Below, piece by piece: positions 6,501 to 63,594 of a DNA stretch of 64,000 nucleotides. A program made the translations under genes and the position numbers. Numbering within the stretch: position 1 is the stretch's first letter; each line of letters begins with the position of its first letter. The stretch is taken from positions 1-64,000 of the forward strand of contig NZ_JANGCE010000002.1 in the NCBI RefSeq assembly GCF_024462775.1, read 5' to 3'. The notes below the pieces were generated by a model, which was not told where the DNA came from, searched no databases, and was given only the letters and a program-made list of their open reading frames with translations. The DNA is from Butyricicoccus faecihominis. Lineage in GTDB: Bacteria; Bacillota; Clostridia; Oscillospirales; Butyricicoccaceae.

Positions 6501-7400
6501 TCAGTCGATGATATGGATATCGCGCAGGTAATTCAGATTGCGTTTGGCCGAAGCGAAAGCCTGCGCCGTCGTGGCGCGCGGCATGTCGGATTCGACCACC
6601 GCGATGCCTGAAAAACCGATATCGTCCATCGCCTTCTTCACTTCTTTAAAATCGATGATGCCGTCCGGCAGGTCGCACATCACGTTAATATCGAACGCGG
6701 TATCCGAATCGATATGCTCCTCCATAACCTTTTTGTACACCGCGCCGTCCACCTGTTTGAAGTGCAGGTAGGCGATACGGCTGACAAAGCGGCGCATAAA
6801 ATTGGGCGCCGACGGATCGCCGGGCTGGCCGTTACCGTTGTCATAGGCGTGGTGGCCCGTATCAAAGCAGAGGTTCAGGCCGGTATAGTCCATCAGGCGG
6901 ACGATCTCCTCCTCGTACTCGATCATGGTCTTGATATGCGGATGATAGACCACCTCGATGCCGAACTCGTTTTTGGTATACTCGCCCATGTCGCGGATCT
7001 TGCCCAAAAACGCGTTCCACACGGCGGCGTCCATATCCTTCTTCTTCTCGCTGTACAGGCCCACGTCGGATTCGTCCATCGTCACCAGATACTTGGCGCC
7101 CAGCGCGTTCAGGCGCTTGCACAGCGCTTCGACGCGCGGGCGGAAATCGGCAAAGGACGCGCCCTGATCAAATTGATAACAGGCCGTGCCCGCGCATACC
7201 GCAAGGCCGCGCTTTTGCAGCTCTTCCCGCAGCTTTGCTTCATCGGTCGGCAGATAGCCGTCCGGGCCCAGCTCCAAAGCCTTATAGCCCGCCTCGGCCG
7301 CCTGATCGAGAAACACCTCATACGGCGTGCCCGAGGGCGTGCCGTCGGCGTACCAAACGCCCCAAGAGCAGGGCGCGGTCGCGATCTTTACATGACTCAT
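6501..7400 (-). CDS. Sugar-phosphate isomerase/epimerase, xylose-isomerase-like TIM barrel
   Basis: This 299-residue AP-endonuclease-2/xylose-isomerase-like barrel resembles IolE/IolI inosose dehydratases and isomerases. Candidate metal-binding positions are the Glu in ALELGPDGY near residue 43, VVYHPHIKT (His), CFDTGHHAYD and the late VVESDMPR (Glu). It acts in the cytoplasm, probably on a keto-sugar made by the Gfo/Idh dehydrogenase encoded just upstream. Such pairs are known to isomerise or cleave 3-keto sugars and glycosides. It is not the inositol-pathway IolE of this window, which is at 39948-40847 and sits among iol genes. The exact reaction is unknown. Confidence 0.7.
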   Translation of the reverse strand: MSHVKIATAPCSWGVWYADGTPSGTPYEVFLDQAAEAGYKALELGPDGYLPTDEAKLREELQKRGLAVCAGTACYQFDQGASFADFRPRVEALCKRLNALGAKYLVTMDESDVGLYSEKKKDMDAAVWNAFLGKIRDMGEYTKNEFGIEVVYHPHIKTMIEYEEEIVRLMDYTGLNLCFDTGHHAYDNGNGQPGDPSAPNFMRRFVSRIAYLHFKQVDGAVYKKVMEEHIDSDTAFDINVMCDLPDGIIDFKEVKKAMDDIGFSGIAVVESDMPRATTAQAFASAKRNLNYLRDIHIID

Positions 7401-51064: not shown

Positions 51065-51140
51065 CCGGGTGTAGCGCAGTTGGTAGCGCGCCTGCTTTGG
51101 GAGCAGGATGCCGCAGGTTCGAATCCTGTCACTCGGACCA
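51065..51140 (+). tRNA. tRNA-Pro (anticodon TGG)
   Basis: This is a complete 76-base cloverleaf: acceptor CCGGGTG / CACTCGG, D-arm GCGC-AGTTGGTA-GCGC, anticodon stem CCTGC / GCAGG with loop TTTGGGA, T-arm GCAGG-TTCGAAT-CCTGT, and encoded CCA. It reads CCA and related proline codons. Confidence 0.95.
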
Positions 51141-51317
51141 AAAGTACAAGGCAAAAAAGATTATGGCCCGTAAAGCCAGTGTTTTCAAGCCTTGTGGGGC
51201 CCTCAGCTAAGAAAAGTTGAAGGCCTTTATTCTTAGATATCAGACCACCCAAAGGTCACTCCGGCAGGAGTCGAACCCCCGGCTATCGGGAGAATAAGGC
51301 GGATGTACAACGGAATA
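51141..51317. other. Non-coding stretch after tRNA-Pro with a T-arm-like remnant
   Basis: There is no gene here. On the minus strand at about 51259-51286 the sequence CCGGGGGTTCGACTCCTG looks like the T-arm and 3' end of a decayed tRNA or tmRNA. It may be an old integration site at the left edge of the redox cluster. Only the resemblance is seen; no cloverleaf can be completed. Confidence 0.3.
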
Positions 51318-51358
51318 AAGCACAAGGGCGGCTCCGGCAGGAACCGCCCTTGTGCTTT
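51318..51358. terminator. Bidirectional intrinsic terminator
   Basis: AAAGCACAAGGGCGG (51318-51332 region) pairs with CCGCCCTTGTGCTTT (from 51344), with an inner TCC / GGA extension and T-runs on both strands. It ends the leftward lysR gene and any rightward read-through from tRNA-Pro. Confidence 0.85.
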
Positions 51359-51366
51359 TTCTGGAG

Positions 51367-52260
51367 CTATATGCTATTTGTAGCCAAAAGCAAACTCCGC
51401 TGTAATTGAGCTAGAAACACCTCGGCTGCCCTGGTAAACACTTGGTACTTTTTCCAGACGACATACATTTTTGTTTCAAGGGCGGGCGTCAGCGGACGGA
51501 AGCACAATTCACTGTCAACACCAACGTTGATGAGCTTGCCGAAGGTGAGGACATAGCCCAAGCCCTCCCGCGCTAATATACCCGCGTTATAGGCCAAATT
51601 GAAGGTGGCCACGATGTTCAGGGAGTCCACCCTTTCCCCGAACCACTTGGGGAAGTCCTCCGTGATCCCCTGACGGGAACAGATGAGCGGTAAATGTAAT
51701 AGATCTTCGATTTGGACAGCCTCCTTTTGGGCAAGGGGACTGTCCTTTCGCATGACCACTCCCCAGGTATCAGAGGACGGCATCTCCAGGTAATTGTATT
51801 TTGACAAATCCACCGTCTGGGCGATCACCGCGAAGTCCAGCAGCCCCCGGTCCAGCCGCTCCGACAGGTCCTCCGTGTTGCCGCTGTACAAATGCAGGCG
51901 GATGCGGGGGTATTGCTCCTGCATGGCCTTGACGCAGCGGGCCAGGTGCTTGATGTCGTCGGACTCGGCGCAGCCCACCCGAATATCTCCGCCGGTCAGC
52001 TCCCCCAGGGCCTTGAATTCCTCCTCGGTCTTATCCACCATGTCCAAGATGTCCTCCGCCCGCTTGCGCAGCAGCATCCCCTCCTCGGTGAGGCGGACGC
52101 TGAAACTGCTGCGGACAAACAGCTTTTTCCCCAGCTCGCCCTCCAAGTCCTTGAGCTGCTTGGACAGCGTGGGCTGGGAAATGTGAAGCCGCTGTGCCGC
52201 GTGGGTCACGCTCCCCTCACGGGCCACCTCCAGAAAATACCGCAAAACCCGAATTTCCAT
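51367..52260 (-). CDS. LysR-family regulator of the redox cluster
   Basis: This 297-residue regulator has a winged helix-turn-helix at residues 1-60 (VTHAAQRLHISQPTLSKQLKDL) and a periplasmic-binding-protein-like effector domain from about 90. The ATG at 52260 follows GGAGGTG. A much longer frame upstream lacks a ribosome binding site and is rejected. It is divergent from the redox operon, and a TGTTATT-N9-AATAACA palindrome (52293-52315) overlaps its own -35 box. This is the classic arrangement of an autoregulated LysR activator. Confidence 0.92.
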   Translation of the reverse strand: MEIRVLRYFLEVAREGSVTHAAQRLHISQPTLSKQLKDLEGELGKKLFVRSSFSVRLTEEGMLLRKRAEDILDMVDKTEEEFKALGELTGGDIRVGCAESDDIKHLARCVKAMQEQYPRIRLHLYSGNTEDLSERLDRGLLDFAVIAQTVDLSKYNYLEMPSSDTWGVVMRKDSPLAQKEAVQIEDLLHLPLICSRQGITEDFPKWFGERVDSLNIVATFNLAYNAGILAREGLGYVLTFGKLINVGVDSELCFRPLTPALETKMYVVWKKYQVFTRAAEVFLAQLQRSLLLATNSI

Positions 52261-52278
52261 GATAACACCTCCAAGGAC

Positions 52279-52307
52279 AGTATACCAGGAGATGTTATTT
52301 GATTCAA
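52279..52307 (-). promoter_or_regulatory. Promoter of the lysR gene
   Basis: Reading leftward, TTGAAT (52307-52302) and TATACT (52284-52279) are spaced by 17 bases. The -35 box lies inside the LysR-type palindrome. Confidence 0.65.
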
Positions 52308-52315
52308 GAATAACA
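52293..52315. promoter_or_regulatory. LysR-type operator
   Basis: The perfect inverted repeat TGTTATT-TGATTCAAG-AATAACA includes a T-N11-A core, as expected for LysR proteins. It is located between the two divergent promoters. Confidence 0.65.
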
Positions 52316-52334
52316 CAATATAGAAAATGGGTAT

Positions 52335-52363
52335 TTGCTATATCAGAAAAGGGACCGTATAAT
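52335..52363 (+). promoter_or_regulatory. Promoter of the redox operon
   Basis: TTGCTA (52335-52340) and TATAAT (52358-52363) are spaced by 17 bases. The box lies 20 bases downstream of the LysR-type palindrome, a position suited to activation. Confidence 0.6.
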
Positions 52364-52385
52364 TGAGACAAAGGGAGGTGAAGCC

Positions 52386-52628
52386 GTGCCAGAAGCGTCG
52401 GATACCCAGAGCATCCTGCGTCAAAACCTGATGGACGCGGGTTGTGACCAGGAGATGGTCCAGCGGTGCGCCGCATTGGCCGGGGAAGAAAGGACAGCGG
52501 AGGTGCTGCGCATCCTCTCACGCCACAGGCGAACTCTGCTGGACACGGTCCACCAGAGGGAAAAGCAGATCGACTGTCTGGACTACCTCGTTTACAAACT
52601 GAAAAAAGAACAATCTATGGAGGAATGA
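52386..52628 (+). CDS. Small helical protein of unknown function at the head of the redox operon
   Basis: This 80-residue protein starts at GTG (52386) because GGGAGGTG (52373-52380) lies just upstream. It is predicted to be all helix, with ASDTQSILRQNLMDAGCDQE at the front and a charged coiled-coil-like tail (HQREKQIDCLDYLVYKLKKE). It contains three Cys. Its stop touches the start of the alcohol dehydrogenase gene. I do not recognise a described function; a regulatory or partner role for the dehydrogenase is a guess. Confidence 0.65.
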   Translation: MPEASDTQSILRQNLMDAGCDQEMVQRCAALAGEERTAEVLRILSRHRRTLLDTVHQREKQIDCLDYLVYKLKKEQSMEE

Positions 52629-53807
52629 ATGATGATCCACTTTGACTTCAACAACCCCACCCACCTGCTTTTCGGCAGCGGCGCGATCTCCCGGCTCGGC
52701 AAGCAGGAGCTCCCCGGCAAAAAGGCGCTTCTGCTGATGTCCAACGGCAAATCCGCCAAGTTGAGCGGCGCCTACGACAAGGTGACGGCCCAGCTCCAGT
52801 CGGCGGGCGTTACATGGGCCGAGTTCCCCAAAATCATGGAGAACCCCCTCAAGAGCGCCGTCATGGAGGGTGCGGCCTTTGCCCGCGAGAACGGCTGCGA
52901 CTTTATCCTGGCCCTGGGCGGCGGCGCGGTGCTGGACGCCTCCGTGGCGGTCTCCGCCATGGCGACCAACCCCGGCGACCTGTGGGACTATGTGCAGGGC
53001 GGAACCGGCAAGGGCCAGTCCCTCCAGAATCCCGGCCTGCCCATCGTCACCGTGACCCTGACCGCCGGCACCGGCTCGGAGATCAACTACTACGGCGTCA
53101 TCTCCAACCCGGACACCAAAGAGAAAATCGGCTTCGGAGGACACCCCTCTCTTGTGCCTGTCCTCGCCATCGTGGACCCGGAGCTGATGCGCACCGTGCC
53201 TCCAAAGTACACCGCCTACCAGGGTTTTGACGCCCTGTTCCACAACACCGAGGTTATGATGTCCAACGGCCTCAATCTCCTTAGCGAAACTTTGGCTCTC
53301 TCCGCCATTGAGAGCATTGCCAAATACCTGCCCCGGGCCGTCCGGGACGGCGGCAATCTGGAAGCCCGGGAGCGGGTCGCCTACGGCAGCACCATCGCAG
53401 GTATGACCATGCAGCTCACCTCTACCACCGCCCAGCACTCTATGGAGCACTCCATGAGCGCGTACCACCACAATCTACCCCACGGCGCGGGCCTCATCAT
53501 GATTTCCGTAGAGTTCGCCCGGTTCTTCATCGAGCGCCACGTCTGTGACGGCCAGTTCATCAAGATGGCGCGGGCCATGGGTCTTGAAAATGCCGACAAG
53601 CCGGAGAATTTTATCACCGCCCTGATGCAGCTTCAGGAGGACTGCGGCGTGGCGGACCTGAAAATGAGCGACTACGGCTTCACCCCGGACGAATTTCTGA
53701 CGCTGGCTGCGGGTGCTCGCTCCATGCAGGGGGGGCTGTTCGCCGCCAACCCCTGTGAGCTGACCGACAAGGACTGCGCGGGCATTTTTGAAAAATCTTA
53801 CCGCTGA
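52629..53807 (+). CDS. Iron-containing alcohol dehydrogenase (butanol dehydrogenase-like)
   Basis: This 392-residue group III alcohol dehydrogenase shows the NAD(P) motif LGGGAVLDASVAVS (near residue 97), TAGTGSEINYYGVI, and the metal-binding series GFDALFHNTE and HSMEHSMSAYHHNLPHGAGL (several His). It resembles BdhA/YqhD-type aldehyde reductases. Translation may start at either of two adjacent ATG codons; the second is 8 bases after GGAGG. It is the first enzyme of the LysR-controlled operon. The codon choice here, with many CTC, GCC and CGG, looks different from the window's core genes. Confidence 0.9.
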   Translation: MMIHFDFNNPTHLLFGSGAISRLGKQELPGKKALLLMSNGKSAKLSGAYDKVTAQLQSAGVTWAEFPKIMENPLKSAVMEGAAFARENGCDFILALGGGAVLDASVAVSAMATNPGDLWDYVQGGTGKGQSLQNPGLPIVTVTLTAGTGSEINYYGVISNPDTKEKIGFGGHPSLVPVLAIVDPELMRTVPPKYTAYQGFDALFHNTEVMMSNGLNLLSETLALSAIESIAKYLPRAVRDGGNLEARERVAYGSTIAGMTMQLTSTTAQHSMEHSMSAYHHNLPHGAGLIMISVEFARFFIERHVCDGQFIKMARAMGLENADKPENFITALMQLQEDCGVADLKMSDYGFTPDEFLTLAAGARSMQGGLFAANPCELTDKDCAGIFEKSYR

Positions 53808-53824
53808 TTAAGGAGGAACTTTCT

Positions 53825-54301
53825 ATGAACACACTGATTGCATACTTTTCCTACACCGGGAATACCAAGGGGATCGCCCGGCAAATTCAGGGACTGACAG
53901 GCGGGGACCTGTTTGAGATTCGTCCCGCCGCACCCTATTCTCAGGACTACGATACCGCCGAGCGGCAGGGCCGCAAGGAGACCCGCGACGGCTACCGCCC
54001 GCCTCTGGCGGAGCAGGCGCCCGACCTGTCCGGCTATGACGCCGTCCTGCTGGGGACCCCCAACTGGTTTAACACCGTGGCGCCCCCGGTGGCCTCGTTT
54101 CTGGCGGAAAACGACTTTGCGGGCAAGCACATCGCCCTGTTCTGCACCAACGGGGGCGGCGGTCTGGGGCATATCCCCACCGACATCAAGACGCTGTGCA
54201 AGGACGCCAAGCTGCTGGACGGTCTGAACCTCTACGAGGACGGCGGCGCTGGAGCCAAGGCAAAAATTGCTGACTGGCTGAAGAAAAATGGCCTGATGTA
54301 A
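53825..54301 (+). CDS. Flavodoxin
   Basis: This 158-residue flavodoxin-fold protein has the FMN phosphate loop FSYTGNTKGIA (residues 8-18). A WFNTVAPPVASFL segment corresponds to the FMN-stacking loop. It is cytoplasmic with no signal peptide. It would carry electrons for the operon's reductases. It lies 17 bases after the alcohol dehydrogenase gene with a GGAGG site. Confidence 0.88.
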   Translation: MNTLIAYFSYTGNTKGIARQIQGLTGGDLFEIRPAAPYSQDYDTAERQGRKETRDGYRPPLAEQAPDLSGYDAVLLGTPNWFNTVAPPVASFLAENDFAGKHIALFCTNGGGGLGHIPTDIKTLCKDAKLLDGLNLYEDGGAGAKAKIADWLKKNGLM

Positions 54302-54314
54302 AGGGGGACTTTCC

Positions 54315-55070
54315 GTGAATGAGGTAATCAAATCCCTGCTTGCCCACCGTTCCGTCCGGGCGTATACGGAGAAGGCGGTAGAGGATGAGGTTTTAGACCA
54401 AATCATAGGGGCTGTACAGATCGCCCCTAACTGGGTCAATCTCCAACACGTCTCCGTGATTGTAGTGAAGGACCAGTCGCGCCGGAAGAAATTTGCCGCG
54501 CTCTGCGGAGACCAGCAGCACATCGCCCAGGCCCCGGTCTTTTTGATATTCTGCGCGGACTACTACCGCACCTGGCTCGCCTGCCGAGCCAAAGGCCAGC
54601 CCTTTGACGAGGTGGTGGGACAGATCGACAATGTCCTCGTTGGGGCCCACGAGGTGGGCATTGCTCTGGGCACCGCCGTGGCGGCTGCGGAATCCTTTGG
54701 ACTGGGCACTGTACCTATCGGGGACATCCGGCTGCACGCTCTGGATGCGGTCACGGAGCTGGGACTACCCAAGTATGTGCTTCCCCTGTTAGGGCTTTGT
54801 GTGGGCTATCCGGCGGAGTGGCCCGGCCAGAAGTTTCGTCTACCCAAAGAGGCGGTCTGCTTTGAGGAACGCTACAATCAGTCGCTTGCACCTCTTTTGG
54901 CACAGTACGATGAAGCCTACGCCGCTTATTTGATGGAACGTCCTCAGAACAGCCGCGTGGGGACTTGGACACAGTTGGCCGCCGACTTCTACCGCCCGCC
55001 CTATGACCATTACCCGGAGGTCCCGGAACTGTTGCGGCGGCAGGGCTTTTTCCACAGTGAACAGTTATAA
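54315..55070 (+). CDS. Nitroreductase family, NfsA/FRP-type NADPH oxidoreductase
   Basis: This 251-residue flavin reductase or nitroreductase has an FMN-binding HRSVRAYTEKAV segment at about residues 11-22. The longer NfsA-type C-terminus wraps the dimer (KFRLPKEAVCFEERYNQ). It is cytoplasmic and follows the flavodoxin gene by 13 bases, so the two may exchange electrons. It differs from the shorter nitroreductase at 494-1015. Confidence 0.88.
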   Translation: MNEVIKSLLAHRSVRAYTEKAVEDEVLDQIIGAVQIAPNWVNLQHVSVIVVKDQSRRKKFAALCGDQQHIAQAPVFLIFCADYYRTWLACRAKGQPFDEVVGQIDNVLVGAHEVGIALGTAVAAAESFGLGTVPIGDIRLHALDAVTELGLPKYVLPLLGLCVGYPAEWPGQKFRLPKEAVCFEERYNQSLAPLLAQYDEAYAAYLMERPQNSRVGTWTQLAADFYRPPYDHYPEVPELLRRQGFFHSEQL

Positions 55071-55093
55071 GAAATAGAACAAAGGAGTATTGC

Positions 55094-55366
55094 TATGATA
55101 CCATTTTTATTGGCAATCCCATTTGGTATGGGGATATGCCCATGATTTTATACAGCTTTTTGGAGCAGTATGACCTCTCCGGCAAGACCATTGTACCTTT
55201 TATCACCTCCGGCGCCAGCGGGTTCTCCGGCACCATCGGCACCATGCAGGAGCTTCAGCCGGGTGCAAATGTGGTTGAAAACGGGTATTCCATCACCAGA
55301 AACCGGATGGAGGAGGCTCCGGCGGGCGTTGCGGCTTGGCTGAAAGAGCTGGGTTATCTAAACTGA
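55094..55366 (+). pseudogene. Truncated flavodoxin remnant
   Basis: Reading from 55094 the frame gives YDTIFIGNPIWYGDMPMILY and continues as the C-terminal half of a flavodoxin, ending KELGYLN. The N-terminal FMN loop is missing, and the only in-frame ATG (55136) would give 76 residues. It closely matches the 3' part of the lipoprotein gene that follows (55850-56127), at DNA level too. It is therefore the left-over of a tandem duplication. An AAAGGAG site is fused to the fragment in a different frame. Confidence 0.8.
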
Positions 55367-55395
55367 CCACACACAGACAAGAAAGGATGATCACG

Positions 55396-56127
55396 ATGAA
55401 AAAGCAATTATCAGCCCTGCTCCTGAGCGCTGCGTTGATACTCGGCCTGACGGCGTGTGGCGGGGGACAGGGCGGTGTCTCCAACCAGAGCGCTCCTCCC
55501 CAATCCTCTGCACCCACCCCGAGCACGACTCCCGAGAGCATGGAGCCCGGTAATGTCACATCGGCTCCCGACGGCAAGGCTCTAGTGGCTTATTTCTCCG
55601 TGCCGGAGACGGACAGTGCGGAGAATATGAACGCCGAGGAGGAAAACAGCACCGTAGTCATTGACGGCGAGGTGCTGGGCAACACCCAATATGTTGCCTA
55701 TGTCATTCAGGAGAACACCGAGGCAAACCTCTTCCGTATTGAGCCGGTGACGGCCTATCCCATGGATCACGCCGAGCTGGAGAAGGTTGCCACTGAAGAA
55801 AAACGCCAAAACGCCCGCCCGGAACCTTCCGCTCAGGTGGAGGATATGGAACAGTACGATACCATTTTTCTGGGCTACCCGAATTGGTATGGCGATCTGC
55901 CGATGATCCTTTACAGCTTTTTGGAGCAGTATGACCTTGCGGGAAAGACCATTATCCCCTTTGTCACCTCCGGGGCCAGCGGGTTCTCCGGCACCATCGG
56001 TACCATCCAAGAGCTTCAGCCAGATGCGACTGTAATTACGGACGGGCTTTCCATCACTCGGGCCGTTGTGCAGGACGCGGAGCCGGAAATACTTATCTGG
56101 CTGAACGGTATGGGCTATGCGGGCTAA
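55396..56127 (+). CDS. Flavodoxin-like lipoprotein
   Basis: This 243-residue protein has a lipoprotein signal peptide ending in GLTAC (Cys21), a Ser/Pro/Thr-rich linker to about residue 58, and then a flavodoxin fold of the Flavodoxin_4 type. The fold shows LVAYFSVPETDS, LGNTQYVAYVI, DTIFLGYPNWYGDLP and TSGASGFSGTI. It should be anchored outside the membrane, an unusual place for a flavodoxin. The ATG at 55396 has AAAGGA 8 bases upstream. It is followed with no gap by the DUF4405-type membrane gene, suggesting that electrons reach it through the membrane. Confidence 0.87.
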   Translation: MKKQLSALLLSAALILGLTACGGGQGGVSNQSAPPQSSAPTPSTTPESMEPGNVTSAPDGKALVAYFSVPETDSAENMNAEEENSTVVIDGEVLGNTQYVAYVIQENTEANLFRIEPVTAYPMDHAELEKVATEEKRQNARPEPSAQVEDMEQYDTIFLGYPNWYGDLPMILYSFLEQYDLAGKTIIPFVTSGASGFSGTIGTIQELQPDATVITDGLSITRAVVQDAEPEILIWLNGMGYAG

Positions 56128-56814
56128 ATGAAAATGTCTCGAAAGGCCGTCATAGACGTGCTGCTGACGGTGCTTCTTCCGCTGCTGATGGCCTATAACC
56201 TGATTGGAGAGGCGGCCCATGAATGGCTGGGCTTGGGAATGTTCCTGCTGCTCGGCCTCCATCACATCCTAAATGTCAGATGGAGCGGAGTAATTCTCCG
56301 GGGACGGTACGGCCCGTACCGCATTTTACAGACGGCGGCGGTATTGCTTCTTTTCCTTTCCATGCTTGGCTCAATGATGAGCGGGATCGTCCAGTCCAAA
56401 CACATTTTTACAATGGTGCTGACCGGGCGGGCGATCTCCGCCATGAGAACAACGCATATGCTGTGCGCTTACTGGGGCTTTCTCCTGATGGGGTTTCACT
56501 TGGGCCTGCACTGGCCGGTCATCTTCAACAGGTGGAGGGGCGCTGCGGCAAAGCCGCTCCCACCGGCCTGCCGGGCGGCTGTGTGGCTGATGTCTGCATA
56601 CGGCGTTTATGCGTTTGCGCGCCGCGATCTGACCGAATATTTATTTTTGAAAACCCAGTATGTATTCTTTGACTTTTCAGAACCCCTCCCATGGTTCTTA
56701 CTGGACTATGCGGCAATCTTGGCCTTGCTGACCGTTATTGGACACATTGCCGCAAAAACGGCGATTCGTCTTTCGGTGAGGACCCAATCCCAAGAAAGGA
56801 AGGCGCTCGCATGA
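56128..56814 (+). CDS. DUF4405-type (flavinylation-associated cytochrome-like) membrane protein
   Basis: This 228-residue protein has about five hydrophobic helices. His residues suited to bind heme b lie within or beside them: His31, His45, His46, His110, His124 and His128. This pattern resembles cytochrome b561 and the DUF4405 family that accompanies extracytoplasmic flavin electron transfer. It begins directly after the lipoprotein flavodoxin gene and overlaps the SLH-AKR gene (ATGA). Inferred role: carrying electrons from the cytoplasm to the outer-face redox proteins. Heme binding is not proven. Confidence 0.72.
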   Translation: MKMSRKAVIDVLLTVLLPLLMAYNLIGEAAHEWLGLGMFLLLGLHHILNVRWSGVILRGRYGPYRILQTAAVLLLFLSMLGSMMSGIVQSKHIFTMVLTGRAISAMRTTHMLCAYWGFLLMGFHLGLHWPVIFNRWRGAAAKPLPPACRAAVWLMSAYGVYAFARRDLTEYLFLKTQYVFFDFSEPLPWFLLDYAAILALLTVIGHIAAKTAIRLSVRTQSQERKALA

Positions 56815-58343
56815 AATTAAAAAAATTGCTGTCTATTGGTCTGCTGGCGGTCCTGCTGTTGCAAACGGCCGCCTGTGCCTCCGCGTCCGCCCCTCCTGCG
56901 GAATCAGATGGCGGTGCTACAACCGTAGAAACGGTGGCACCGGCCTTTACGGACGTCCCCGCCGACGCCTGGTACGCGCAGGCCGTCCTGTATTGTCAGG
57001 AACGAGGGCTGATTGGCGGTACGACCGCCGACTCGTTTTCTCCCGACCGTTCCATGACCCGCTCCATGCTGGCCGCCGTACTGTACCGGCTGGCCGGAAG
57101 CCCCGCCGTTTCCACCGCCCCTGGATTTTCGGATACACAGGCCGGGGCTTGGTATGCGGACGCCGTTACCTGGGCGGCGGAGGCAGGAGTTGTCTCCGGC
57201 TATGGGAACGGTCTGTTTGGGACCAACGACGCCGTCAATCGGGAGCAGACCGTGACCACCCTGTGGCGATATGCAAATTCCCCCGAGTCTGGGGCGACGG
57301 CGGCCTTTACGGATACCGGCGACCTCTCAGTCTGGGCGCGTTCGGCGGCAAACTGGGCCTGGGCCCAGAGGATCGCTGCCGGGCGGGAGGGAAACCGCTT
57401 TGCACCCAAAGAAACCATTACGCGCGCGGAGGTATGTGTTATGTTACATCGTTGGCTGAATCTTTCTAACAGCGGTGCGCCGACAGCGACACCGTCTCCC
57501 GAAATCACGCTTCCACCTGACGGAGGAATTGCGTTCGACTTTGATAGCAAGACCGTCACACTGAACAGTGGCTATGAAATGCCCATCAACGGACTGGGGA
57601 CCTACTCCCTGACCGGCGAGACCTGTGTCGCCTCCGTCACTGCGGCGCTGGAGCGTGGCGTGCGGCTCATCGACACCGCCCATATCTACGGCAACGAGGC
57701 AGAGGTAGGACAGGCGGTGCGGGATTCCGGCATCCCCCGAGAGGAGATTTTCGTCATCACCAAGCTCTATCCCAACCAGTTTGCGGGCGCGGAGGACGCA
57801 ATCGACGAGGCGCTTCAGAAACTGGATATCGGATATATCGACCTGATGCTGCTCCACCATCCAGGCGCAAACGACGTGGAGGCGTACAGCGCGATGGAAA
57901 GGGCTGTGGCAGCGGGTAAGGTCCGCTCCATCGGACTGTCCAACTGGTATGTTGAGGAGCTGGAGGAATTCCTGCCTCAGGTAACGATTCCCCCGGCTCT
58001 GGTGCAAAACGAGATACACCCCTACTATCAGGAAAACGACGTGATCCCCTATATCCAGAGCTTGCGCATCGTAGTACAGGGCTGGTATCCCTTTGGTGGC
58101 CGCGGACATACGGCGGAGTTGCTGGGGAATGAGGTCATAAATGAGATTGCCGCAGACCACAATAAATCCGCAGCTCAGGTCATTCTGCGCTGGAATCTCC
58201 AAAAGGGTGTAGTGGTCATCCCCGGCTCCAGCAATCCCGACCATATTCAGGAGAACACGGAGCTTTATGATTTCGAGCTGACAGATGGGGAGATGGCAAG
58301 GATCAACGCCCTGAATCGAGGCGAAAAGCATGATTGGTATTGA
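56811..58343 (+). CDS. Lipoprotein with three SLH domains fused to an aldo/keto reductase
   Basis: This 510-residue protein has a signal peptide with lipobox TAAC (Cys22) and three S-layer homology domains (about 45-88, 105-148, 165-208; FTDVPADAWYAQAV, FSDTQAGAWYADAV, FTDTGDLSVWARSA). A Pro/Thr linker follows, and then a complete aldo/keto reductase barrel (243-510). The catalytic tetrad is intact: Asp288, Tyr293, Lys318 and His349. The NADP-binding IPGSSNPDHI is also present. It would lie on the cell surface, bound by lipid and cell-wall polymer. An NAD(P)H-type enzyme outside the membrane is odd. The start at 56811 overlaps the previous stop by four bases. Confidence 0.88.
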   Translation: MKLKKLLSIGLLAVLLLQTAACASASAPPAESDGGATTVETVAPAFTDVPADAWYAQAVLYCQERGLIGGTTADSFSPDRSMTRSMLAAVLYRLAGSPAVSTAPGFSDTQAGAWYADAVTWAAEAGVVSGYGNGLFGTNDAVNREQTVTTLWRYANSPESGATAAFTDTGDLSVWARSAANWAWAQRIAAGREGNRFAPKETITRAEVCVMLHRWLNLSNSGAPTATPSPEITLPPDGGIAFDFDSKTVTLNSGYEMPINGLGTYSLTGETCVASVTAALERGVRLIDTAHIYGNEAEVGQAVRDSGIPREEIFVITKLYPNQFAGAEDAIDEALQKLDIGYIDLMLLHHPGANDVEAYSAMERAVAAGKVRSIGLSNWYVEELEEFLPQVTIPPALVQNEIHPYYQENDVIPYIQSLRIVVQGWYPFGGRGHTAELLGNEVINEIAADHNKSAAQVILRWNLQKGVVVIPGSSNPDHIQENTELYDFELTDGEMARINALNRGEKHDWY

Positions 58344-58714
58344 TGAAATGATTCTCTATTCCATTCCTGACAAGCCCCAGTTCATTCTGAGATTTATTTG
58401 TGAAAAATAATCCGTGTGGTGACAAAATAGCAAATATCATTTTTGCCTGATTATAAATAAATGGCTTAAACACTGGCTTTTGCATGGATTCTCACCTTAT
58501 CAGCGCAAAAATATGCCACATTTCGACAAGAAAACAGGGGAAATAGAGGGAATTTCGTTGGTTCAAGTCCCTACAGTTGCAGCAGCTCAGAAACACCCCT
58601 GATGGCACGAATCCCCGTCTGCGGCGAGGCTTCTTAGCCGGGCGGGGTGTTTCTTCGCTTTCGCCCGCGATCCGCTACGAGGGGCTCTGACGAGAAGAAA
58701 ACGGGATAGACATG
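58344..58714. other. Intergenic region at the right end of the redox cluster
   Basis: There is no gene. The first 200 bases are AT-rich. At about 58555-58585 the string GGTTCAAGTCCC resembles a tRNA T-arm. An imperfect long hairpin follows (AAACACCCC near 58591 with CGGGGTGTTT near 58644-58653), which could terminate the operon. Together they may mark an old insertion boundary. Confidence 0.35.
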
Positions 58715-61962: not shown

Positions 61963-63594
61963 TTATGCTTCCGGGTCGATCGAACCGCCGCCGGATTCCC
62001 CGCCGCCGGTCTCACCGCCCGTGCTGCCGCCGCCGGATTCCCCGCCGCCGGTCTCGCCACCTGTGCCGCCGCCGGATTCTCCGCCGCCGGTCTCGCCGCC
62101 CGTGCCGCCGCCGGTTTCTCCACCGCCGGTCTCGCCGCCCGTGCCGCCGCCGGATTCTCCGCCGCCGGTCTCGCCGCCCGTGCTGCCGCCGGGTTCTCCG
62201 TCAGAGGTTCCCGGCGTAGTGGGCGTGCCGGGCGTTGTGCCTGTTCCCGTGCCGTCGCCCGATCCGTTACTGTCGCCTTGCTCAGGATCGATCGCGCCGG
62301 AACCGGAGCCGCCCTCGTTGCTGTCGCTGCCCGAGCCGGAGCCGGAATCAGGCCAAACGTAATCGTCGCCCGGGTCTGTGCTTACATGTCCGCCGCCCGA
62401 ATAGCTTTCCGGTCCGTCCACCATGTCCAGCGTGGTGATCGGCTCGGCAAAGGGATTCATATACTGGTTGACCAGATCGAGCGTTTGCTGATAATACGGG
62501 AAATAGAATGAATACGCGACCGGGTCGCTGCCCGCCGTGCTCATTTGCCCATAGCCCGGCAGGGTAAAGAACTGGATATTCTCGTTTTTGATATTCATCG
62601 CCTGCATGCCCATCCATAGGATCTGACCGGCGGTGAAGTCGGTTTTGACGTTATTGAAGATCGCGTCCGAAATGTCCTTGATCTTGAGGATGTTCTTCAT
62701 CTGGAACAAATCGCTCGCGATCTTTTTCAGGAACTTCTGCTGGTTTTCCACACGGCCCTGATCGCCCGTTTCATACTGCATCGAATAGTCGTTCGAGTGC
62801 CGCCAGCGCAGGAACTCGACCGTCTGCTTGCCGTTGAGGTGCTGCATACCGGCGTACAGGTCGATGTGCAGATCCTGCGAGGGATCGTCGTACTGCATAC
62901 GGAACGGCACCTCGTAATCCACGCCGCCGATCGCGTCCACGATCGCGGCGATACCGTCAAAGTTGACGACAACATACTTATCCGGTTTAAAGCCAAGCAG
63001 ACGTTCGACTTCCTTCTTGGTCTGCTCGATATTGCCGCCCTTGCCGCCGGTCTTGATGCCGTATGCCGCGTTAATCTTACGGGACGCGCCCGAATAGCCG
63101 TTGTTGCACATGGTATCGCGCGGGATATTCATGATATTGATGGTCTTTTTCTTGGTATCCATGCGCGCGACCATGATGGCGTCCGTTCGCGTTTCATCCT
63201 CGTCCACCGCGCATACGACGAAGGTAAACAGATCGTCCACGCGCGTGCCGGCGTTTAAAAGCTCGTTGACATCCACCTTGTCTCCGTTTTCGGTATCATG
63301 GATGGTGGGATCGTTCTTGATTTCCGGCGGGCGGATAAAGATCCACGCCGCGGTTGCAAGACCCACGCATAGCACCGCCACGATGACCGCCGCGATGATG
63401 ATGCGTTTGCGCTTTTGATTTTTCGTTAGCGGCGTTTTTACTTTGCCGCCTTTTCCGGCTTTTGCCGGCTTTCCGCCCTTGCCCTGTGGCTTCGGCGCCG
63501 TCTTATGTGTGCCAGTGGCCGCTTTTGGAGCTGACTTTGGCGAGCCGCTCCCTGTCGTTTTCTTGCGGCCGCCGCCGCCTCCAAACAGTTTCAA
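61963..63594 (-). CDS. LytR-CpsA-Psr (LCP) family cell-wall polymer ligase with Gly-rich repeat tail
   Basis: This 543-residue protein begins with a basic cytoplasmic segment rich in Lys, Gly and Pro (residues 1-65). One transmembrane helix follows (about 66-90) and then the LCP domain (about 110-400) with TDAIMVARMDTKKKTINIMN, IPRDTM, and the Arg/Asp residues of FLRWRHSN. LCP enzymes transfer teichoic-acid-type polymers to peptidoglycan outside the membrane. The C-terminal 140 residues are low complexity, ending in five copies of a 13-residue Gly-rich unit (TGGETGGGESGGG). The tail is probably a flexible wall-spanning spacer. Confidence 0.92.
   Translation of the reverse strand: MKLFGGGGGRKKTTGSGSPKSAPKAATGTHKTAPKPQGKGGKPAKAGKGGKVKTPLTKNQKRKRIIIAAVIVAVLCVGLATAAWIFIRPPEIKNDPTIHDTENGDKVDVNELLNAGTRVDDLFTFVVCAVDEDETRTDAIMVARMDTKKKTINIMNIPRDTMCNNGYSGASRKINAAYGIKTGGKGGNIEQTKKEVERLLGFKPDKYVVVNFDGIAAIVDAIGGVDYEVPFRMQYDDPSQDLHIDLYAGMQHLNGKQTVEFLRWRHSNDYSMQYETGDQGRVENQQKFLKKIASDLFQMKNILKIKDISDAIFNNVKTDFTAGQILWMGMQAMNIKNENIQFFTLPGYGQMSTAGSDPVAYSFYFPYYQQTLDLVNQYMNPFAEPITTLDMVDGPESYSGGGHVSTDPGDDYVWPDSGSGSGSDSNEGGSGSGAIDPEQGDSNGSGDGTGTGTTPGTPTTPGTSDGEPGGSTGGETGGGESGGGTGGETGGGETGGGTGGETGGGESGGGTGGETGGGESGGGSTGGETGGGESGGGSIDPEA

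Follow-up and report, generated by a model that had tools for sequence, protein, structure and literature searches.

The window, a 64,000-nucleotide stretch of Butyricicoccus faecihominis DNA, contained at positions 56811 to 58343 of the forward strand a single uninterrupted frame, from ATG to stop codon, encoding a 510-residue predicted surface lipoprotein in which three S-layer homology (SLH) domains precede an aldo/keto reductase (AKR) domain; we refer to this protein as SLH-AKR. Its N-terminus, MKLKKLLSIGLLAVLLLQTAAC, was, by eye, basic at the start and hydrophobic in the core and ended like a lipobox at Cys22 (56811 to 56876); it had no twin arginine and was also matched as a lipoprotein signal by a simple lipobox pattern. 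Three SLH stretches were recognized by Pfam (E value, 3.7e-29) at approximately residues 45 to 207 (56943 to 57431). The AKR domain, YvgN/DkgA-like and with what looks like an NADH-type loop, spanned residues 247 to 510 (57549 to 58340), and residues 262 to 502 matched Aldo_ket_red (PF00248; E value, 3.5e-48; 164.6 bits against a cutoff of 24). The AlphaFold model, with a mean pLDDT of 86.1 and a pTM of 0.59, was mostly above a pLDDT of 90 in the SLH and AKR parts and low in the signal, the linker (residues 222 to 236), and the last residues. Among the Foldseek matches listed for the AKR part, 50 of 50 were AKRs, including structures of YvgN (41% identity), 2,5-diketo-D-gluconate (2,5-DKG) reductase, DkgA (33%), and prostaglandin F synthase; the NCBIfam DkgA and DkgB equivalogs scored below their cutoffs (198.1 versus 425 bits and 185.3 versus 327 bits, respectively). 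Judged by its sequence matches, SLH-AKR is a member of the Aldo/keto reductase superfamily. The preliminary description of this DNA had proposed that one frame joins a lipoprotein signal, three SLH domains, and an AKR and that the enzyme lies outside the membrane; the former was borne out by the open 510-residue frame and the Pfam domains, and the latter agrees with the lipobox-like signal, as read by eye, and the three SLH domains. SLH binding needs a pyruvyl transferase of the PF04230 kind, which acts in wall polymer pyruvylation, and the source genome had one PF04230 match, presumably a candidate CsaB-type enzyme. The very C-terminus, EKHDWY (residues 505 to 510), was kept in at least 90% of the aligned family.

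The SLH-AKR gene is the last of three tightly joined genes on the forward strand. The TAA of a flavodoxin lipoprotein gene (55396 to 56127; Flavodoxin_4 E value, 4.1e-24; NCBIfam PRK06934, 197.6 bits against a cutoff of 172) abuts, with zero gap, the ATG at 56128 of a gene for a DUF4405 membrane protein (56128 to 56814; Pfam E value, 4.7e-9), and the DUF4405 stop shares 4 nucleotides, ATGA, at 56811 with the SLH-AKR start. Further upstream on the same strand lie genes for an iron-containing alcohol dehydrogenase (52629 to 53807; Pfam Fe-ADH E value, 7.5e-43), a flavodoxin (53825 to 54301; Flavodoxin_4 E value, 6.6e-25), and a nitroreductase-family protein (54315 to 55070; Pfam E value, 1.3e-19), the last two having no export signal by eye, followed by the remnant of a second flavodoxin (55094 to 55366). 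The remnant comprises the C-terminal part only, its N-terminal half being gone, and shares 68% identity with the flavodoxin lipoprotein encoded immediately downstream. A divergent LysR-type regulator gene (51367 to 52260, reverse strand), whose start was assigned to the first Met within the LysR domain, completes the group. Elsewhere in the window, a reverse-strand gene at 61963 to 63594 encodes a protein with a long Gly/Glu/Thr-rich repeat tail, which we take to be LytR-CpsA-Psr-like.

The genes from the LysR-type regulator to SLH-AKR occupy a strain-variable island of approximately 7.4 kb (51142 to 58589) whose left end lies at a tRNA-Pro(TGG) gene (51065 to 51140, forward strand) and whose right end resembles, by eye, a tRNA 3' end. 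Another genome of the same species (G040, a single contig) carried both flanks of the island, with a 99% match to the window, and lacked approximately 51142 to 58589, its tRNA-Pro running directly into the sequence that resumes at window position 58590. No integrase was found among the seven island genes scanned with Pfam, and gain in the source strain and loss in G040 cannot be told apart. A unit of approximately 125 to 150 bases with complementary ends, AAACACCCC...GGGGTGTTT, occurred once at the right edge of the island (58590 to 58710) and in four tandem copies at the equivalent G040 site (C1, 2314357 to 2314960).

The AKR domain belongs to a wider family. A first scan, kept to the best 80 of 502 relatives, gave 79 loci, in which the AKR matches were 63 to 83% identical in the best segment, and these loci, the window, and two further sets of 18 and 17 made up the 115 proteins used for architecture counts. 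Residue counts were based on 110 unique AKR rows, with three proteins left out as too short (L160, L129, and L091) and two (L118 and L119) that duplicate L068 and L099; the L090 row is a second AKR without an export signal that arose from frame choice. Alignments A1 and A2 covered 43 of the 115 proteins and 31 of the 40 flavodoxin-containing proteins, respectively. An E value of 1e-85 or better was reached by the AKR in 19 of the 394 genomes from the order (the source genome included), in 21 of 400 genomes of a second family (f13), and in 1 of 87 genomes of the window's own family, namely, the window itself; the other 86 contained no complete SLH-AKR. A genome of the same genus carried the last 89 AKR residues at 79% identity at a contig edge, below the strict cutoff of 1e-85, and more distant AKR members in the scanned genomes were 51 to 64% identical. 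Plasmid carriage was considered and dropped, the Enterococcus plasmid records (n = 3) being 44.8% identical.

The 115 proteins comprised 72 with an AKR alone (fragments included), 30 flavodoxin-AKR proteins (one a duplicate), 1 cyclophilin-like-AKR protein, and 12 with SLH domains. The last group consisted of the window protein, L152 (three SLH domains and a more distant AKR, 51% identical), and ten SLH/flavodoxin/AKR proteins, five of which add a cyclophilin-like domain. Flavodoxin and AKR were thus fused in 40 of 115 proteins, with the flavodoxin always N-terminal of the AKR, and 75 had no flavodoxin domain. None of the 79 loci from the best of 502 relatives had SLH domains. The SLH-AKR proteins outside the window came from 11 genomes, all of family f13 and making up 11 of its 21 AKR-bearing genomes, and so the genome survey run here removed the concern, raised in the preliminary description, that the architecture might be unique to one genome. 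Pfam confirmed about seven to eight of the SLH proteins (L122, L123, L133, L150, L151, L152, L155, and L161); L044 and L154 were also checked, and L154 had choline-binding repeats in place of SLH. The cyclophilin-like domain recurred as a separate exported gene or as a flavodoxin/AKR fusion (L103, at 6868 to 7383, L044, L133, L150, L153, L161, and L162) and was PF18050 in the four Pfam-checked cases.

Signs of export were common. The proteins of the 79 loci from the best of 502 relatives began with a lipoprotein signal, a membrane segment, stretches that look Big2-like by eye, or a whole flavodoxin preceding the AKR. A simple pattern found a lipobox in 71 of the 110 unique proteins and a hydrophobic N-terminus of another kind in 29. 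Of the 10 that had neither, seven seem truncated or disrupted at their start, and the other three (L090, L165, and L166) look unexported. Some members from Bacilli had an N-terminal membrane segment only and were counted against the surface reading. On such N-terminal patterns, the window AKR is a member of a family of AKRs, most of them predicted to be exported, in gut Firmicutes.

The catalytic tetrad (D288, Y293, K318, and H349), which the preliminary description had called intact, was invariant in alignment A1 (43 sequences) and in 110 of 110 AKR domains. The same description had also called the NADP-loop segment intact, and here the comparisons disagreed. The cofactor loop is IPGSSNPDHIQEN, read as IPGSSNPDH, as opposed to IPKS...R in the NADPH-type AKRs compared; the usual 2'-phosphate-holding Lys and Arg are replaced by Gly472 (58224 to 58226) and His478 (58242 to 58244), and Phe is replaced by Tyr265. 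The loops of other AKRs in the source and related genomes, as caught by a pattern, were mostly IPKS or IPKT, then Arg. Within the family, Gly was found at position 472 in 109 of 110 AKR domains (the single Gln, judged by its loop, was in L090), His at 478 in 110 of 110, and Tyr at the F22 position in 108 of 110. E481 and N482, presumably adenine-side residues by AKR numbering, were each present in 109 of 110, and His350, next to the catalytic His, in 108 of 110, the same site being Trp in YvgN. The alignment showed these three residues in PDB entry 1m9h too, as Tyr22, Gly232, and His238, where the wild-type entries 1a80 and 1hw6 had Phe, Lys, and Arg; the title of 1m9h names F22Y and K232G, then Arg 238, and a fourth change, which we take to be A272G, lies outside the aligned stretch. 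This mutant was reportedly engineered to accept NADH. Because the engineered enzyme carries the same three residues, the SLH-AKR pocket looks NADH-type, which is its simplest reading from these residues. Since the Lys/Arg pair is typical rather than universal, superfamily membership stands. An origin of the Gly/His loop as an adaptation to export was ruled out, because two relatives with no visible export signal, L010 and L116 (the L116 copy apparently lacking its own start), have the pair as well; the loop change thus came before export.

In a quick tree that gave long-branch warnings, the AKR family grouped together (SH-aLRT, 99), adjoining L010 and L116 (98), and the window AKR paired with L150 (86, below the tool's starred level), an SLH-cyclophilin-flavodoxin-AKR protein. 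By plain identity the nearest row was an AKR-only lipoprotein (L043, 83%). Among those compared, the window SLH region scored best against L150 (55.8% over 181 residues), with 59.5% identity to L161 over a shorter 111 residues. As L150 is both the partner in the AKR tree and the top SLH match, the two halves of the window protein may have a common history, with the middle domains perhaps lost from the window form or gained by L150.

The preliminary description had suggested that electrons might come from the adjacent flavodoxin lipoprotein and a membrane cytochrome-like protein. The tie to flavodoxin held up, with a gene pair in the window and flavodoxin-AKR fusions in other genomes. A flavodoxin was fused or in the flanks in 50 of the 79 loci from the best of 502 relatives, and the other 29 had none fused or in the stretch examined. 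Of the 48 loci flanked by 3 kb or more to either side, 30 had one. Other neighbors in these 79 loci were LysR (40), a separate flavodoxin (37), FMN reductase (34), hexapeptide transferase (31), alpha/beta hydrolase (27), iron-containing alcohol dehydrogenase (4), and DUF4405 (1, L116), all lower bounds because genes were called as crude open frames and many loci were cut by contig ends. The tie to the membrane cytochrome was kept in part: a heme-type DUF4405 protein, by Pfam, adjoins the window gene, but across the family just 1 of 79 loci (best of 502 relatives) had a DUF4405 gene close to the AKR in a single-sequence search that may miss distant copies, so that it was set aside as a general electron source and retained as a local partner. 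The window DUF4405 is the only match in the source genome at an E value of 0.001, and all eight of its His residues, putative heme ligands among them, are common to the L116 copy. The L116 gene beside DUF4405 was considered as a flavodoxin lipoprotein and rejected on its likeness to alpha/beta hydrolases found at other loci. According to PMC11334425, another DUF4405 protein binds heme b, DUF4405 genes cluster with extracytosolic Flavodoxin_4 genes, and the flavinylated residue lies after the first strand, in a flavodoxin insertion. The window flavodoxin has, by alignment, a 24-residue insertion after its first strand, within which a flavinylation motif is not clear. The window's contig (C12) contained no match to apbE, the one ApbE match of the genome being on another contig (C53).

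Read together, the sequence comparisons establish surface signals, an intact tetrad, an apparently NADH-type pocket, recurrent pairing with flavodoxin, and local coupling to DUF4405. Our preferred reading, to which we assign a probability of roughly 0.4, is that SLH-AKR is an NAD(H)-type carbonyl reductase of the cell surface, held there by lipid and SLH domains and working with an extracytosolic flavodoxin. Electrons would cross the membrane, in the window through DUF4405, to the flavodoxin FMN; the flavodoxin would keep the AKR-bound nicotinamide reduced; and the AKR would reduce extracellular carbonyl compounds (aldehydes, ketones, and perhaps sugars or quinone-like molecules), possibly to detoxify them or to dispose of electrons. 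The full relay, from membrane cytochrome to surface flavodoxin to a nicotinamide held in the surface AKR, with carbonyl reduction outside the cell and no export of NADH, is a more doubtful proposal than the reading as a whole. For the proposed transfer from flavodoxin, the chief weaknesses are that no enzyme handing flavodoxin electrons to an AKR-bound NAD is known to us and that many family members have no flavodoxin in reach. Docking of the flavodoxin on the AKR was dropped, since a fused flavodoxin-AKR model had a pTM of 0.63, too low for confident docking.

The main rival, tentative but somewhat better placed than the full relay, is that the surface AKR works with NADH or NAD set free by lysing cells or by the host and that the flavodoxin is a neighbor with its own substrate, serving the same response through a separate reaction. 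The NADH-type pocket suits this explanation, as do the 75 of 115 proteins without a flavodoxin domain and the 29 of 79 loci (best of 502 relatives) without one nearby; free extracellular NADH is probably scarce, though, and the fusion of flavodoxin to AKR in 40 of 115 proteins, with the flavodoxin always first, argues for a shared task. An outside supply would be unnecessary if NAD(H) were a permanent group in the AKR, recycled by a second substrate such as an alcohol or a sugar. There is a precedent in the periplasmic glucose-fructose oxidoreductase, whose permanent cofactor is recycled in this way, and the complete tetrad and the near-invariant E481 and N482 are compatible with such a group. 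That enzyme, however, is exported folded, by Tat, and a simple RR pattern occurred in only 2 of the 110 N-termini, neither convincing; Tat export of the AKR family was accordingly rejected, and the cofactor would have to be loaded outside. A permanent group, which also leaves the flavodoxin unexplained, therefore strikes us as improbable.

Slightly less probable still is a protein that has turned the AKR fold to noncatalytic binding or a moonlighting surface role. The preliminary description had offered binding without catalysis as an alternative, and both the cofactor problem outside the cell and His350, where YvgN has Trp, speak for it; the conservation of the tetrad in all 110 domains made it less likely. 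An assembly artifact fusing an SLH gene to an AKR gene could be entertained from the lack of the whole island in G040 and of a complete SLH-AKR in the other 86 family genomes, yet 11 other genomes encode an SLH-AKR protein, flavodoxin-containing or not, and L150 is both the quick-tree AKR neighbor and the best-scoring SLH match of the window protein, leaving an artifact hardly credible.

Because cells do not export NAD(P)H, nicotinamide enzymes are regarded as cytosolic. A gut-bacterial family with a surface AKR, often fused to flavodoxin, would make extracellular NAD(H) chemistry and its electron source testable, and it could bear on the transformation of dietary or host carbonyl compounds by gut bacteria. 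The natural likeness to an engineered NADH pocket offers an immediate and cheap prediction. With the reaction itself a prediction, the family points to a little-noticed kind of extracellular chemistry. Each component, whether AKR, SLH anchor, extracytosolic flavodoxin, or DUF4405 cytochrome, is already known singly; neither their combination at the surface nor an exported AKR family appeared in open-access titles or abstracts among the matches listed.

Several known systems resemble parts of this one. The YvgN/DkgA-type AKRs, including 2,5-DKG reductase, are cytosolic, and several bind NADPH through the Lys/Arg pair; SLH-AKR resembles them in fold and tetrad, with 33 to 41% identity to YvgN, DkgA, 2,5-DKG reductase, and prostaglandin F synthase, and differs in being exported, in its Gly/His loop, and in the conserved C-terminal EKHDWY. 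In the engineered 2,5-DKG reductase A of 1m9h, Tyr22, Gly232, and His238 match residues that the AKR family carries naturally, whereas 1m9h is a laboratory mutant. The flavinylated Flavodoxin_4/DUF4405 system described in PMC11334425 resembles the window's flavodoxin lipoprotein, with its insertion after the first strand, and its His-conserved DUF4405; it differs in that the window contig has no apbE, and "aldo" is absent from the main text of PMC11334425. SLH-anchored surface enzymes provide the remaining parallel. One from the same genus (L015, on contig 190 of G007) carries three SLH domains and an enzyme part that, by eye, is carboxylesterase-like. In such proteins, as in SLH-AKR, an SLH triplet precedes the enzyme domain, but the enzyme part of SLH-AKR, unlike that of L015, is a nicotinamide oxidoreductase.
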